Shown piece after piece: positions 57,351 through 63,754 of a DNA stretch of 64,000 nucleotides (its first letter is position 1; the number at the start of each line of letters is the position of its first letter). Location: positions 62,001-126,000 of the forward strand of contig NZ_MIJB01000028.1 in assembly GCF_002174305.1 (NCBI RefSeq), in the 5' to 3' direction. The notes beneath the pieces are model-generated. The model was given only the letters and a program-made list of their open reading frames with translations. It had not been told where the DNA came from and did not search any database. The position numbers and the translations under genes are program-made. Origin of the DNA: Aeromicrobium sp. PE09-221 (lineage in GTDB: Bacteria > Actinomycetota > Actinomycetes > Propionibacteriales > Nocardioidaceae).

Positions 57351-58514
57351 GTGGATTTGATGGAGTACCAGGCGAAGGAGCTCTTCGCCAAGCACGATGT
57401 ACCGGTCACGCTCGGTGCCGTGGTCACCACCGCGGACGAGGCCGAGAGCGCCGCGCAGGAGATCGGCGGCGCTGTCGTCGTCAAGGCCCAGGTCAAGGCC
57501 GGAGGCCGCGGCAAGGCCGGAGGCGTCAAGCTCGCCAAGACGCCCGCCGAGGCCCGTGAGCACGCCTCGAACATCCTCGGCATGGAGATCAAGGGCCTCA
57601 CGGTCAACCGTGTCCTGATCGTCCCCGCGGCTGAGATCGTCGAGGAGTACTACTTCTCCTTCCTGCTCGACCGCTCCAACCGCAGCTACCTGACGATCGC
57701 CAGCGTCGAGGGAGGCGTGGAGATCGAAGAGGTCGCCAAGACGAACCCCGACGCCGTCCGTCAGATCCCCGTCGACGCCACCACCGGTGTCGACGAGCAG
57801 AAGGCCCGCGAGATCGTCGCGGACGCCCGGTTCCCCATCGAGCTCGTCGACCAGGCGGTCGGCACGATCCTCTCCCTCTGGAAGGTCTTCGTCGAGGAGG
57901 ACGCCACGCTCGTCGAGGTCAACCCCCTTGCTCGGCTCGCCGGTGACAAGCTCGAGGCCCTCGACGGCAAGGTCTCGCTGGACGAGAACGCCGACTTCCG
58001 TCATCCCGACCACGCCGAGTTCGAGGACAAGGCCGCGGCCGATCCGCTCGAGGCGAAGGCCAAGGAGAAAGGCCTCAACTACGTCAAGCTCGACGGCGAG
58101 GTCGGCATCATCGGCAACGGGGCGGGTCTGGTCATGAGCACCCTCGACGTCGTCGCCTACGCCGGCGAGGCGCACGGCAATGTCAAGCCCGCCAACTTCC
58201 TCGACATCGGCGGTGGCGCCTCGGCCGAGGTCATGGCCAACGGTCTGGACGTCATCCTGGGCGATCCGCAGGTTAAGAGCGTGTTCGTCAACGTGTTCGG
58301 CGGCATCACCTCGTGTGATGCGGTGGCCAATGGCATCAAGGGCGCACTGGAGCTGCTCGGCGACAACGCCAGCAAGCCGCTCGTGGTGCGTCTGGACGGC
58401 AACAAGGTCGACGAAGGCCGCGCCATCCTCAACGAACTGAACCACCCGCTGGTGACCCAGGTCGACACCATGGACGGTGCCGCCGACAAGGCCGCCGAGC
58501 TCGCGAACGCGTAA
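57351..58514 (+). CDS. sucC: Succinyl-CoA synthetase beta subunit
   Basis: 387 residues. ATP-grasp fold: [35 protein letters not shown] (nucleotide), [14 protein letters not shown] and [48 protein letters not shown]. With SucD makes ATP/GTP from succinyl-CoA in the TCA cycle and accepts the MutAB product. GTG 57351 gives MDLMEYQ, as in mycobacterial SucC (MDLFEYQ); ATG 57360 is the alternative. Confidence 0.95.
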
Positions 58515-58527
58515 GGATCAAGCAGAC

Positions 58528-59424
58528 ATGTCGATCTACCTGAATTCCGACTCCAAGGTCATCGTCCAGGGCATCACCGGTGGTGAGGGCACCAAGCACA
58601 CCGCGCTCATGCTGAAGGCCGGCACGAATATCGTGGGCGGTGTCAACGCCCGCAAGGCCGGCACCACCGTCTCGCACGTGGACGCCGACGGCAAGGACGT
58701 CGAGCTGCCCGTCTTCGGCTCCGTGGCCGAGGCCATGAAGGAGACCGGTGCCGATGTCTCGGTCGTCTTCGTGCCGCCGCCGTTCGCCAAGGACGCCGCC
58801 ATGGAGGCCATCGACGCGGGCATCGGCCTGCTGGTGGTCATCACCGAGGGCATCCCGGTGCAGGACACCGCCGAGTTCTTCGCGCACTCGCAGGGCACCA
58901 AGACTCGCATCATCGGCCCCAACTGCCCCGGCATCATCACTCCGGGCGAGGCCCTCGCGGGCATCACCCCGGCCACGATCGCCGGCAAGGGCCCGATCGG
59001 CCTGGTGTCCAAGTCGGGGACGCTGACCTATCAGATGATGTTCGAGCTGCGCGACTTCGGTTTCACCTCGGCCATCGGCATCGGCGGCGACCCGATCATC
59101 GGCACCACGCACATCGACGCCCTCGAGGCCTTCGAGGCCGACCCCGACACCAAGGCGATCGTCATGATCGGCGAGATCGGCGGCGACGCCGAGGAGCGGG
59201 CGGCCGAGTACATCAAGGCCAATGTCACCAAGCCGGTCGTCGGCTATGTCGCGGGCTTCACCGCACCCGAGGGCAAGACGATGGGCCACGCCGGTGCGAT
59301 CGTGTCCGGCTCGTCCGGCACGGCGGCGGCCAAGAAGGAGGCCCTGGAGGCCGCGGGTGTCAAGGTCGGCAAGACGCCGAGCGAGACGGCCGCGCTCATG
59401 CGGGAGATCCTGCAGAGCCTCTGA
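58528..59424 (+). CDS. sucD: Succinyl-CoA synthetase alpha subunit
   Basis: 298 residues. CoA-binding domain [17 protein letters not shown] and [30 protein letters not shown]; the phosphorylated histidine in [16 protein letters not shown]. 13 bases after sucC with AAGGA upstream. Followed by a strong terminator. Confidence 0.95.
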
Positions 59425-59485: not shown

Positions 59486-59914
59486 TCAGGCGGCTTTGCG
59501 GACCAGCTCGCGCAGTGTTTGTTCGACCTCGTCGTTCCAGTCCACGACAGCGAAGGAGGTCGCCCACATCGCCCCGTCGTCCAGGTGCGCGTCCTCATTG
59601 AAGCCGATCGACGTGTAACGGGTGTCGAACTTCGAGGCCGGCTGCACGAAGGTCACCACCTTGCCCTCGCGGGCATAGGACGGGAACCCGTACCAGGTCT
59701 TGGGATCGAGGTTCGGCGCCTCCTCGGTCACCACCACGTGGAAGCGCTCGGCGATGAGCCGGTCGAGCCCCTCCAGCCCTGAGATCGCTTCCAGACAGGC
59801 GTCGAACTCCTTCGCCTTCTTCGCCGCCCCCTTCACGCCCTTGGCGGCGCGCAGTTCCTCGGCGCGTTGCTTCATGGCCGCGCGCTCGGAGGCGCTGAAA
59901 CTGTCCTCGGACAT
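59486..59914 (-). CDS. DUF1801/YdhG-like protein
   Basis: 142 residues. Helical first part (SERAAMKQRAEELRAAKG), then the alpha-beta DUF1801 core with KTWYGFPSYAREGKVVTFVQPASKF and DDGAMWATSFAVVDW. Family members such as FrdA/YdhG were suggested to bind iron; the role is unclear. GAGGAG nine bases before the ATG at 59914. Confidence 0.75.
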   Translation of the reverse strand: MSEDSFSASERAAMKQRAEELRAAKGVKGAAKKAKEFDACLEAISGLEGLDRLIAERFHVVVTEEAPNLDPKTWYGFPSYAREGKVVTFVQPASKFDTRYTSIGFNEDAHLDDGAMWATSFAVVDWNDEVEQTLRELVRKAA

Positions 59915-60002: not shown

Positions 60003-61823
60003 TCACTCGTCGGCGTAGGCGAGGCGCTGGCCGGCCCGTTCCATGAGCGCGCCGAAGTCCTCCGCGGTGAAGGTATTGTCTCCTGACGGCGGAGCGAGCA
60101 CCTGCGTGATCTCCGAACCGCGTCGTACGACCCCCATGCGGTAGTAGACCCGCTCATCCTCACCGGTCTCGAAGCTCAGCCGCCAGCTGACCCCGGCGAA
60201 GCCGTCGCTCGCGATGTCCTCGCGCTCGTCGATCTGCGCCGACAGCTCGCTCTCCCCGCATCCGTCCACGGCCCCGGCGATACCCTCCAGCACCTGCTGT
60301 GCGGCCTCATCGGACTCCAGCCGCGCGTTGGTCTGGGCGACGGCGAACTCCGGAGGGAGATCATCGGCATCGGGGATCGCGATCAACCGGGTCGCGACAT
60401 CGGAGAACTGCTCGCCGCTGAAGTCGGTCTTGTCGCACAGCGATGCCGCGGGATTGAAGCCTTCCGGCTGCTGGGCAGGGCCCGCTGCCCATACTCGGTC
60501 GATCGTCCCGAGCGGAGGCATGTCCACGACGCTGAGGAAGGACGGGTACTGTTCGGTGGCCGGCGGCAGCGCCGGCTCGACGGTGATCTCATTGGTGCAC
60601 TCGCCACCGGAGTCGGCGCACACCTTGGCGATGGAGTCGTTCAGCGTGCGGGCGAACTCGTCGACATCGGTCGGCTCGGTGCCGTTGACCTCGTGGATGA
60701 GCGTGCTGGTGACGGTGCCCGACTGCGCGAGGCCTACGCTGATGAACCGGGCGGGGTCGCGATAGGACTGCAGGCGCAGGATCTTGAAGTCGCCGAAGGG
60801 CCTCTTGACGGTGTACGCGTCGATGAGCCTGGTGCGCGGATGCGCGCAGTTCGCATACCAGCCGCGCAACGTGGCATAAGCCTCCTGCGAGGCCTCCTGG
60901 CTCCGGGAGACCTCGATCGACTGCGCGACGCGTTCGCCAGCGGGATTCGTGCTGTACGCCCGGACGAACACCTTGAGTGGATCACCGTCGGCGAAGCGGG
61001 TCGGGGGACAGGTCGAGTACGGGGTCTCGTTCTCCGTGTCGGTCTCGGTCGCGTCGACCTTCCACTCCTGCTCGGAGTTGAGACGCTCGACCTGATCGAG
61101 GGAGAGGAGATCGTCGGTGTCGATATTGTGCGCGTCGAGGATGACATCGGGACGCTCGGCGCCCATCTTCTCCCGGTAGGGCAGGCCTTCGACCGTGGCG
61201 AGGGCGTCGCCATTGGTGGCGACGAAACCACCGGCGAGCACCGCCAGCACCGAGGCCGCGACCAGGATCGCGGCACCGCGGCGTCCCCCCTGTCGGGCCG
61301 CCCGGCGCAACGCGGCCGGCTCGGGGAGCTCGAGCGCGTCGACGCTCTCGCGGAGCGCCATGAGACGGGACTCGAGCTCTTCGAGAGGCTGGGAGAGGGA
61401 TGCCTCAAGCCGGGTCAGCGCATTGCTCGCCAGCTCCATGCCTATGGCATCGTCCACCTCCATCTCGCGCGTGGCGTCGTCGAGGTCGATGCCGGCCACG
61501 GTGAGCAGTGTCACGATGCGGCGTTCGTCGTAGTCCAGGTCGTGCAGCGCGCCGAACAGCGCGGTATCGCCGCTGTCCTCGTGACGCCTGCGCAGGGGAT
61601 GGACACTCCGGGAGAAGGATGCCAGTTTGGCGGCCTGGTCGCGGACATAGGCGACCGGGTCGCTGCTGTCCCGCAGCCGACCCCACGCGCGCCAGGCTCG
61701 CTGGTAGGCGTCGACGCTCGCATCCCGTGCCACCTGCCGGTCCCCGCACAGCGCGTAGGTGGTCGCGACGACCCGTCGCCGGGTGGCGCGATAGAAGTTG
61801 TCGAACTCGTCGACACGCGTCAT
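60003..61823 (-). CDS. Sigma-factor-like domain fused to a membrane helix and extracytoplasmic region
   Basis: 606 residues. Residues about 5-70 (FDNFYRATRRRVVATTYALCGDRQVARDASVDAYQ onward) match sigma-70 region 2 of ECF-type factors; 93-142 (LHDLDYDERRIVTLLTVAGIDLDDATREME) match region 4 in a weakened form; 183-203 is a single membrane helix; the remaining 400 residues are outside, acidic, with several cysteines. A cytoplasmic sigma-like head tethered to a sensor-like domain. Region 4's helix-turn-helix is poor, so DNA binding is uncertain. ATG 61823 has AGGAGG ten bases upstream; ATG 61847 is also in frame. Confidence 0.6.
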   Translation of the reverse strand: MTRVDEFDNFYRATRRRVVATTYALCGDRQVARDASVDAYQRAWRAWGRLRDSSDPVAYVRDQAAKLASFSRSVHPLRRRHEDSGDTALFGALHDLDYDERRIVTLLTVAGIDLDDATREMEVDDAIGMELASNALTRLEASLSQPLEELESRLMALRESVDALELPEPAALRRAARQGGRRGAAILVAASVLAVLAGGFVATNGDALATVEGLPYREKMGAERPDVILDAHNIDTDDLLSLDQVERLNSEQEWKVDATETDTENETPYSTCPPTRFADGDPLKVFVRAYSTNPAGERVAQSIEVSRSQEASQEAYATLRGWYANCAHPRTRLIDAYTVKRPFGDFKILRLQSYRDPARFISVGLAQSGTVTSTLIHEVNGTEPTDVDEFARTLNDSIAKVCADSGGECTNEITVEPALPPATEQYPSFLSVVDMPPLGTIDRVWAAGPAQQPEGFNPAASLCDKTDFSGEQFSDVATRLIAIPDADDLPPEFAVAQTNARLESDEAAQQVLEGIAGAVDGCGESELSAQIDEREDIASDGFAGVSWRLSFETGEDERVYYRMGVVRRGSEITQVLAPPSGDNTFTAEDFGALMERAGQRLAYADE

Positions 61824-61992
61824 CGGCTCTCGACCTCCTGGGAGCATCCGTGACGGGTGCGTGCTCGGGGTGGCTCCGTTCTCCGGCGACGCGCCGGACG
61901 GCGCGCCGTGTGCGGCCGACCGTTCTCGAACCGCGGGGAGCGGCTCGGCGTGGCAGGCTGCGACATCGCAACTTTACAGGTTGGATGGGCGG

Positions 61993-63120
61993 GTGCCTGA
62001 CCGGATGCGTGCTGCCGACTCCTGGCGCCCCGCCCTCCTGACAGCGGCCGCCGCCGTCGCGATACCGGTGATCGCGGCGATCCTCGTGGTGGCGGCGGTG
62101 ACCCAGGACGCGAGCTGGGGCACCCTCCGGGCGGGGGTGCGGGCCTGGCTCGTCGCCGTCGGCGCCGGTCTGCATATCGGTGAGACGTCGATCAGCCTCG
62201 TGCCCCTCGGAGGAGTGCTGGTCGCCGGGGCGATCGCGGCCCTGGTGGCGGCACGGCTGGCGCATCGAGACACTCCCGATGCCGTGGTCTTCGGCGCGCT
62301 GGCCGGAGCGGGCGCCGGAGCCCTCGCCGCGACACTGTCCGCCGCGACCTCTGTCGGATCGGTGGGCACGTCCTTCGTGCGGGCGGCGTTCGGTGCCTTC
62401 GTGGTGGTCGGAGTGGCGGCCGCTATCGCCGTGGCGATCCGGGTGCCGGGGTCATTCCGCGTCCCCGCCTGGGCGGCACCGATGCTCCCGTCGGTCCGCG
62501 CCGGGGTCCGCGCCGGCGCCCTGATCCTCGGCTACGCGGCCACGCTCGTCGCCGTGCTCGCCGCCTTCCATGTCCGCCGCGCGGGGGACCTGTGGGCGGC
62601 GCTGGACCCCGGCATCGGAGGCGGACTGGTCCTGGCGCTGGTGTCGTTGCTGTCACTGCCCACGATCATCGCCTGGGCCTCCGCCGCTCTCATCGGACCG
62701 GGGTTCGCCCTCGGCACCGACACGAGCGTCTCGATGACCGGTGTGGATGTCGCCGCCCTGCCGGCCTTCCCTCCGCTCGCGGTGATCCCCTCGCCCGGAC
62801 CCTTCCCCGATCTCGTCGTCGCGCTCATGATCGTCCCCGTGCTGATCGCCGGGTACGCAGGATGGCGATGGGCGGCGGCCCCCGGGGACACCACGCTGTG
62901 GAATCGAGTGGCACTCGGAGCGGGTGCCGGTGCCGTGGCCGGGGTGATCGTCGGCCTGGTGGCCGCGACCGGCCGTGGGGCGGTCGGACCGGGCCTTCTC
63001 GCCGATGTGGGCCCGCCGATTCTCAGCACCGTGGGCATCGCCATCGTCTCGTGGGCGCTGGCCGGGGCAGTCGGTGGAGCGCTGGGCCACTATCGTGGTC
63101 TTCGTGCCGATCAGGAGTGA
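61993..63120 (+). CDS. DUF6350 polytopic membrane protein (Rv0955-like)
   Basis: 375 residues, about nine hydrophobic helices, rich in Ala, Gly and Val; no enzymatic motif. Actinobacterial DUF6350 proteins precede purN as here. GTG 61993 is chosen because the upstream in-frame part is not membrane-like; ATG 62005 is possible. Overlaps the purN start by 17 bases. Confidence 0.7.
   Translation: MPDRMRAADSWRPALLTAAAAVAIPVIAAILVVAAVTQDASWGTLRAGVRAWLVAVGAGLHIGETSISLVPLGGVLVAGAIAALVAARLAHRDTPDAVVFGALAGAGAGALAATLSAATSVGSVGTSFVRAAFGAFVVVGVAAAIAVAIRVPGSFRVPAWAAPMLPSVRAGVRAGALILGYAATLVAVLAAFHVRRAGDLWAALDPGIGGGLVLALVSLLSLPTIIAWASAALIGPGFALGTDTSVSMTGVDVAALPAFPPLAVIPSPGPFPDLVVALMIVPVLIAGYAGWRWAAAPGDTTLWNRVALGAGAGAVAGVIVGLVAATGRGAVGPGLLADVGPPILSTVGIAIVSWALAGAVGGALGHYRGLRADQE
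63091..63096 (+). promoter_or_regulatory. -10 hexamer TATCGT, leaderless type, inside DUF6350 end
   Basis: TATCGT, seven bases, GTG of purN at 63104. Confidence 0.5.
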
Positions 63121-63754
63121 CCGTCCCGCGCGCATCGTCGTGCTCGTCTCAGGTAGCGGCACCAATCTACAAGCGTTGCTCGACGCCGCCGCGGATCCGT
63201 CCTTCGGGGCCGAGATCGTCGCGGTGGGCGCCGACCGTGACGGCATCGAGGGCTTGCGTCGGGCGGAGCGGTCCGGAGTACCCACCTTCGTCGTGCGGCT
63301 CGCCGATCATCCGGACCGCCCGGCCTGGGATATCGCGCTCGCCGACGCCGTCGCTCAGCACGATCCCGACCTGGTCGTACTGGCCGGTTTCATGAAGCTC
63401 ACCGGGCCCGCCTTCCTCGGCCTCTACGGCGGCCGCACGCTGAACACCCATCCGGCGCTCTCGCCGGCCTTCCCCGGCATGCACGGCCCGCGCGACGCAC
63501 TCGCGTACGGCGTCAAGGTCACTGGTGCGACGCTCTTCGTGGTCGACGAAGGCGTCGACACGGGTCCGATCGTCGCGCAGGTCGCTGTACCCGTCCTCGA
63601 CGAGGACGACGAGGACACACTGCACGAGCGCATCAAGACCAGCGAACGGCGCATGCTCGTCGAGTGGGTGGGACGTCTCGCGCGTGACGGCTATATCGTC
63701 GACGGACGCCGGATCGTCTCACCTCCACCACCGTCAGTCCAGAACCAGGAGTAA
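63104..63754 (+). CDS. purN: Phosphoribosylglycinamide formyltransferase
   Basis: 216 residues. [16 protein letters not shown] binds the phosphate; catalytic Asn and His are in [13 protein letters not shown], the Asp in [12 protein letters not shown]. Third step of purine synthesis, using 10-formyl-THF. Start 63104 is fixed by the promoter hexamer and by [10 protein letters not shown] beginning the fold. Confidence 0.93.

Follow-up and report, generated by a model that had tools for sequence, protein, structure and literature searches.

An ECF sigma factor-like domain fused to its membrane partner: a protein of the sucCD-purN locus in Aeromicrobium and related actinomycetes

Background

How does a domain resembling an ECF sigma factor come to stand in a single polypeptide with a membrane helix and a large outer part, and what could it do there? 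The question is raised by an open reading frame on the reverse strand (61823-60003) of the window, the 64,000-nucleotide stretch of Aeromicrobium sp. PE09-221 DNA analysed here. A preliminary description had read its product as a sigma region 2 and a weakened region 4, followed by one membrane helix and about 400 extracytoplasmic residues, and thus as a fusion of functions usually split between sigma and anti-sigma; proteolytic release of the sigma, or a role as decoy or scaffold, had been put forward.

Membrane-fused sigma factors have been described in other bacteria. ECF48, ECF52 (SCO4117), ECF53 and IutY combine sigma regions 2 and 4, an anti-sigma-like part, a helix and an outer domain (PMC8999054, PMC5826349). 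Regulated proteolysis has been shown to free the membrane-fused ECF sigma of IutY (ECF243), and regulated proteolytic release has been proposed for ECF48/52/53. A degenerate relative of sigma factors is likewise known, the sigma-like domain of PhyR, whose promoter and core contacts have degenerated according to a review and which titrates an anti-sigma (PMC8103513). The literature searched, outside the main ECF classification papers, contained no description of the fused protein or of a membrane-anchored, DNA-blind sigma.

Results and discussion

Architecture and fold of the fused protein

Direct reading of the window shows that the frame at 60003..61823 (reverse strand, as are all parts of the gene given below) encodes 606 amino acids and a stop codon, and that a ribosome-binding-site-like AGGAGGT (61833..61839) lies 9 nt 5' of the ATG at 61823; a look for sigma-70-type promoters in the vicinity gave none. 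The product begins with a sigma region 2-like domain (residues 1-72; 61608..61823) and a sigma region 4-like domain (residues 84-145; 61389..61574), the latter including the former -35 recognition helix (residues 125-137; 61413..61451), in which residue counts give no lysine or arginine. A juxtamembrane tail (residues 146-183; 61275..61388), assigned as a putative anti-sigma segment on its profile-profile homology to the cytoplasmic tail of the split partners described below, leads to the membrane helix (residues 184-202; 61218..61274; Kyte-Doolittle 2.45), which carries basic residues on its N-terminal side. With about 40 residues, this tail falls within the size range of under 50 residues that has been set apart for possible class II anti-sigmas (PMC7406223). 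As regards a membrane anti-sigma factor, the tail has homologues in partners encoded beside intact sigmas, and NF052375 yields 17.8 bits against a cut-off of 100. The outer part announced in the preliminary description amounts to 404 residues C-terminal of the helix, forming two lobes with the fold of the PknH extracellular domain (residues 224-404, 60612..61154; residues 413-606, 60006..60587). The only cysteine on the inner side is C26, none occurring between residues 27 and 271, and the outer cysteines 272, 326, 402, 409, 463 and 522 are invariant in 24/24 aligned members.

The N-terminal domain was compared with sigma region 2 by profile, fold and tree, and unrelatedness was found by none of them. 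The NCBIfam SigE family model TIGR02983 matches residues 3-69 (E=1.4e-11) with 44.5 bits, which does not reach the curated cut-off of 141.55 bits, a standalone locus sigma scoring 150.7; all 24 relatives match at E<=0.01. Pfam Sigma70_r2 gives E=0.001 and 19.3 bits, under its cut-off of 24. When a profile of sixteen standalone locus sigmas is used, the fused gene ranks first among the eleven matches that its genome yields (61.4 bits, E=2.3e-16; next best 57.3), and its sigma likeness therefore lies well beyond chance. Region 4 is indeed weakened, Pfam not recognising it in the protein's own sequence; Sigma70_r4_2 is nevertheless found in 16/24 relatives at E<=1, and residues 85-143 superpose on BldN (Z 10.2, rmsd 1.4, 59 residues).

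An AlphaFold2 model built from 33 sequences reached a mean pLDDT of 83.4, with values below 50 across residues 179-222. Foldseek alone returned one match at E<=0.001, to AlgU/MucA, while VIA-align, used as a second pass over the Foldseek matches, placed residues 1-149 on RpoE/NepR (Z 12.6, rmsd 5.4, 147 residues), SigW/RsiW (Z 11.9), CnrH/CnrY (Z 11.9) and PhyR (Z 10.8). The RpoE match, together with TIGR02983, identifies a sigma2-sigma4 fold. As Z values under about 13 may reflect a common arrangement in helical domains, the sequence match and the tree are given equal weight.

Both lobes share the fold of the PknH extracellular sensor domain and TiME. Residues 224-404 superpose on the PknH structure 4esq with Z 15.2 (rmsd 3.1, 165 residues), and residues 413-606, folded separately (pLDDT 91.2), with Z 13.4 (rmsd 3.2, 158 residues). 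PknH_C (PF14032) has no match in the fused protein at E<=10 and is recognised in 17/24 relatives at E<=1 (best 9.1e-7). Unlike PknH, the fused protein has two lobes in tandem and no kinase domain inside.

ECF48/52/53 and IutY likewise carry on a single polypeptide a sigma, an anti-sigma-like part, a membrane helix and an outer domain in this order (PMC8999054, PMC5826349). Compared with them, the fused protein differs in its single inner cysteine C26 and its decayed promoter-reading helix, as well as in the absence of a Pfam zinc-finger match between the sigma part and the membrane helix; its outer part consists of two PknH-like lobes, whereas a proline-rich region with a carbohydrate-binding module is given for the known fused ECFs. 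What it shares with PhyR is a sigma-like domain whose DNA and core contacts have degenerated (PMC8103513), with the fold match noted above (Z 10.8). The NCBIfam PhyR model is weakly matched by 12/24 members (best E=0.0002), a figure that stands without a matched intact-sigma control. PhyR, an alphaproteobacterial anti-anti-sigma, is, however, a soluble response regulator, while the fused protein possesses outer lobes and a helix in the membrane, and Pfam finds no receiver domain in it at E<=10.

Distribution and genomic context

Full or partial matches at E<=1e-8 occur in 279/294 Nocardioidaceae genomes, representing 21/26 genera, and the closest named genome found is that of Aeromicrobium piscarium (93% identity). 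By our own rule for scoring full-length frames, the fused frame is complete in 69 of the 83 fetched loci that carry the C-terminal half, 34 of the 69 being from the genus of the window. The fourteen remaining loci comprise eight of group f3, three of f2, one frame-broken locus (L042), one lacking the sigma domain (L043) and one (L086) where the gene is fused but too divergent for the full-length rule. Of the groups of loci referred to here, f2 is tentatively Propionibacteriaceae, f3 Kribbella-like, f22 Streptomyces-like and f23 Micromonospora-like.

In the window, the fused gene is flanked on one side by sucC (57351-58514) and sucD (58477-59424), which occupy 57351..59424 on the forward strand (Pfam ATP-grasp_2, CoA_binding and Ligase_CoA), and on the other by genes for a DUF6350 membrane protein and a purN-like formyltransferase (62005..63754, forward strand; DUF6350, 187 bits; Formyl_trans_N, 164 bits). 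All 69 fused loci adjoin DUF6350 and/or purN, and sixty also sucC and/or sucD within the available flanks, neighbour family identities having been verified by Pfam in the window only. The sucCD-DUF6350-purN interval is an unexpectedly fixed home for a SigE-family regulator in several actinomycete families. In loci L139-L144, L150, L162-L165 and L167-L170 it holds a SigE-family sigma, often accompanied by a membrane partner. Between sucD and the fused gene, the window also encodes a 142-amino acid protein (59486-59914, reverse strand) without a Pfam family; among the 69 fused loci it was detected only in the window genome and its 93%-identical relative.

The statement that no anti-sigma gene is adjacent holds as worded, and it does so because the second half of the chain is itself the anti-sigma-like partner, which the preliminary description had overlooked.

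Probable origin from a split sigma/partner pair

Each half of the fused protein has split homologues at the sucCD-purN locus, and the reading as a fusion of usually separate components was right. At all four f4 loci read, a separate intact sigma gene overlaps a separate membrane-partner gene, and SigE-family sigma and membrane partner pairs with homologous halves are found at the same sucCD-purN locus in other actinomycetes. In these pairs the two components are encoded by overlapping genes and the promoter-reading helix is intact (34 sequences), whereas the fused protein is one chain with a decayed helix. A profile of the fused C-terminal half detects 14 of a small set of 15 split partners at E<=4.9e-7 (L077 being missed), profile-profile comparison of fused proteins and split partners gives a probability of 98.6% over the tail, helix and outer part, and PknH_C is found at E<=0.1 in 7/15 split partners. 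With the partner start codon taken as that nearest to an 8-nt overlap (our own rule; an earlier one agrees for 12/15), partner and sigma genes share 8 or 11 nt in different frames, so that one small indel would fuse the two. The fusion may have arisen in this way.

Two split pairs in tandem are present in six of the ten matching f23 genomes, these six loci having been chosen since the match list already showed two matches in each. An intact sigma gene likewise adjoins the fusion in 11/36 loci of other Nocardioidaceae genera, and the partner of this second pair was read at all eleven, at L070 only to the end of the locus. At locus L056 (660-2570, reverse strand) an intact second sigma that retains its recognition helix continues in frame into its membrane partner (636 amino acids in all), and this may be an active membrane-fused sigma.

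The 32 fused sigma domains in a first tree form one clade (100/99) that groups with the locus sigmas (99/96). A second tree with more taxa has the first sigmas of the f23 tandems branching first, followed by the f22 and f1 fusions together (98/88, 96/89); the fusion has its closest sisters in the f4 split sigmas according to the first tree (88/62) but not the second. Since long branches were flagged in the sigma trees, a common origin of the fusion in f1 and f22 is probable, not certain. The scenario most consistent with these data is an old in-frame fusion joining a SigE-family ECF sigma to the anti-sigma-like partner that it had in the membrane. Its most likely source is one of two sigma/partner pairs standing in tandem at the sucCD-purN locus.

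Either half has also been lost. In all ten matching f22 genomes, a hydrophobic stretch (Kyte-Doolittle 1.47-1.93, some values being weak) comes after a degenerate sigma, and the chain ends 54-94 residues further on, PknH-like lobes being absent; these lobe-less degenerate sigmas occupy the same locus in genomes of 7-10 Mb (L145, L146, L152-L159). The best match consists of helix and lobes only in 37/37 f3 genomes, and no sigma was left at any of the eight f3 loci read. In the Nocardioidaceae locus L043 (3686-5218, forward strand) the helix and lobes are kept and a sigma domain is detectable in none of the six frames; the start MARVDE, which is kept, resembles that of the fused proteins. A natural series of split pair, tandem pairs, DNA-blind fusion and loss of either half is available at one locus, and it makes the transition from a sigma/anti-sigma pair to a one-piece receptor directly testable.

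Decay of DNA and polymerase contacts under purifying selection

The thirteen residues of the recognition helix, which we take from known sigmas to be the -35 DNA contacts, contain on average 0.57 lysine or arginine residues in the 69 fused proteins, 41 of which, including that of the window, have none. The 34 intact locus sigmas average 4.03 and nine other ECFs of this genome 3.89, with intermediate values in the six first sigmas of the f23 tandems (2.33) and the ten f22 fusions (2.10); rows L147, L148, L149 and L151 were excluded from the counts and one of the ten other ECF loci (L130) gave no row. Within region 4.2, G138 (0/69), T139 (2/69), K141 (0/69), R143 (3/69), R146 (7/69) and R148 (4/69) are seldom kept, the reference being sixteen standalone locus sigmas in which each position is present in 16/16. 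The region 2.2 glutamine-glutamate pair presumably contacts core polymerase, by analogy with known sigmas. Q36 is kept in 2/69 fused proteins versus 33/34 intact locus sigmas, and position E37 is aspartate in 56 and glutamate in ten of the 69, the window protein reading V-D for Q-E. By contrast with these losses, the core positions F7 (68/69), Y11 (69/69), W44 (64/69), R61 (69/69), R101 (69/69) and L106 (67/69) are kept.

The loss of polymerase contacts is thus extensive but partial: the glutamine is gone in 67/69 and six region 4.2 positions are each lost in at least 62/69, while the acidic residue is retained in 66/69, so that polymerase may still be bound weakly. Judged from these residues, the fused sigma half has lost the main core-polymerase glutamine and probably also promoter recognition.

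The sigma half is, however, under purifying selection. Across twelve close pairs (85-98.5% identity, several sharing a genome), dN/dS ranges from 0 to 0.15 for region 2, 0.03 to 0.22 for region 4 and 0.06 to 0.26 for the lobes, with the sigma half constrained at least as much as the lobes in most pairs. These low ratios indicate that it is not drifting freely. Pairs from distant genomes were excluded since their synonymous rates are saturated, as were the indel-misaligned pairs L001-L003, L001-L004 and L002-L003.

Possible functions of the fused protein

Architecture, fold, homology to the split pair, loss of contact residues and constraint are established here by computation. As the contact residues are lost and the domain is yet under purifying selection, a DNA-blind module is favoured over a releasable sigma. 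We regard it as rather probable that the DNA-blind sigma fold serves as a protein-binding module in a one-piece membrane receptor derived from the fusion of a sigma and its anti-sigma-like partner. The paired PknH-like lobes, placed outside by the predicted topology, would act as sensors in the envelope, and on the inner side the sigma-shaped domain would bind and release a protein partner rather than a promoter; polymerase, the anti-sigma tail of another sigma or something new are candidate partners. Such a protein would be devoid of transcription activity and would represent a membrane-anchored counterpart of the sigma mimicry of PhyR. The decoy or scaffold suggested at the outset thus appears, from the residues lost, the better part of that proposal. 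The fold of the sigma half, which is that of sigmas in complex with an anti-sigma and also that of PhyR, and the six invariant outer cysteines favour the receptor reading. Two sets of relatives speak against it, those of f3 keeping helix and lobes only and those of f22 sigma and helix only. So do the second sigma/partner pair, the most obvious candidate partner, which was not detected in the window genome, the acidic residue kept at E37 in 66/69, the disagreement of the two trees over the nearest intact relatives and the single match from Foldseek alone. A further point against it is that in some congeners a standalone sigma located elsewhere outscores the fused gene on the intact profile (G027, 83.5 bits; G035, 83.1; G019, 78.1) and that two (G006, G184) have a partner-profile match beside a sigma match. 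For a wider claim, that the families f1 and f22, which belong to different orders, make up an actinomycete receptor class in which a self-fused ECF sigma became a DNA-blind protein-binding domain long fixed at a central-metabolism locus, the chances seem about even.

ECFs fused to the membrane have been described, and so have degenerate mimics of sigma. The two together, with lobes like those of PknH and a series leading from split to fused genes, were not encountered in the literature searched, which may lack the main ECF classification papers, and look new. Should the sigma fold serve here to bind proteins, mimicry of sigmas would extend beyond soluble regulators such as PhyR, and caution is due in annotation, as sigma-like-scoring members of the fused family may not be transcription factors.

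Three other readings appear improbable to a similar degree. Under the first, the protein is an active ECF sigma, held at the membrane by its anti-sigma half until regulated proteolysis sets it free. The general architecture is shared with IutY and ECF48/52/53 (PMC8999054), the sigma fold is retained and constrained, and active fusions may exist, given the intact second sigma fused to its partner at L056. The absence of basic residues from the region 4.2 helix in 41/69 proteins and the loss of the region 2.2 glutamine in 67/69 make release of an active sigma, the first mechanism of the preliminary description, unlikely for the protein of the window.

Equally doubtful is a PhyR-like decoy that would hold the anti-sigma tail of the second pair and thereby free the sigma of that pair. 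The homologous partner tails, the PhyR precedent and the eleven of 36 loci where an intact sigma adjoins the fusion are consistent with it. The second pair was, however, detected at none of the 34 same-genus fused loci (within flanks of 1.5-4 kb), and the second-partner profile has no match in the window genome at E<=1e-5. Ten congeners do match this profile, but in eight the match is to the fused gene, and only in G006 and G184 does it lie elsewhere, beside a sigma; a partner-profile match adjoining a sigma match was found in two of 49 congeners. Titration is disfavoured as a general mechanism because the second pair was not detected in the window genome, where the fusion seems to persist in the absence of the pair that may once have been its target. 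The two matches away from the fused gene, each beside a SigE-like sigma match, lie at G006:C1:2533879-2534566 and G184:C22:790-1832.

We would give no better odds to an envelope protein working through its lobes, with the sigma half a leftover cytoplasmic anchor. This would account for the 37/37 f3 genomes with helix and lobes only, the eight f3 loci without a sigma and the sigma-less Nocardioidaceae relative L043. It does not fit the constraint on the sigma half, at least equal to that on the lobes in most close pairs, or the 10/10 f22 relatives that retain sigma and helix and drop the lobes.

An artefact, in which a sequencing error joined two genes, has next to no probability: frame breaks do occur in two relatives, but the same full-length frame is found at 69 loci of separate genomes and purifying selection is seen in the twelve close pairs, which refutes it. 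The two broken copies of the fused gene, near 3499-5317 in L042 and near 1164-3082 in L149, are interrupted by a frame change and reflect either a sequencing error or a pseudogene.
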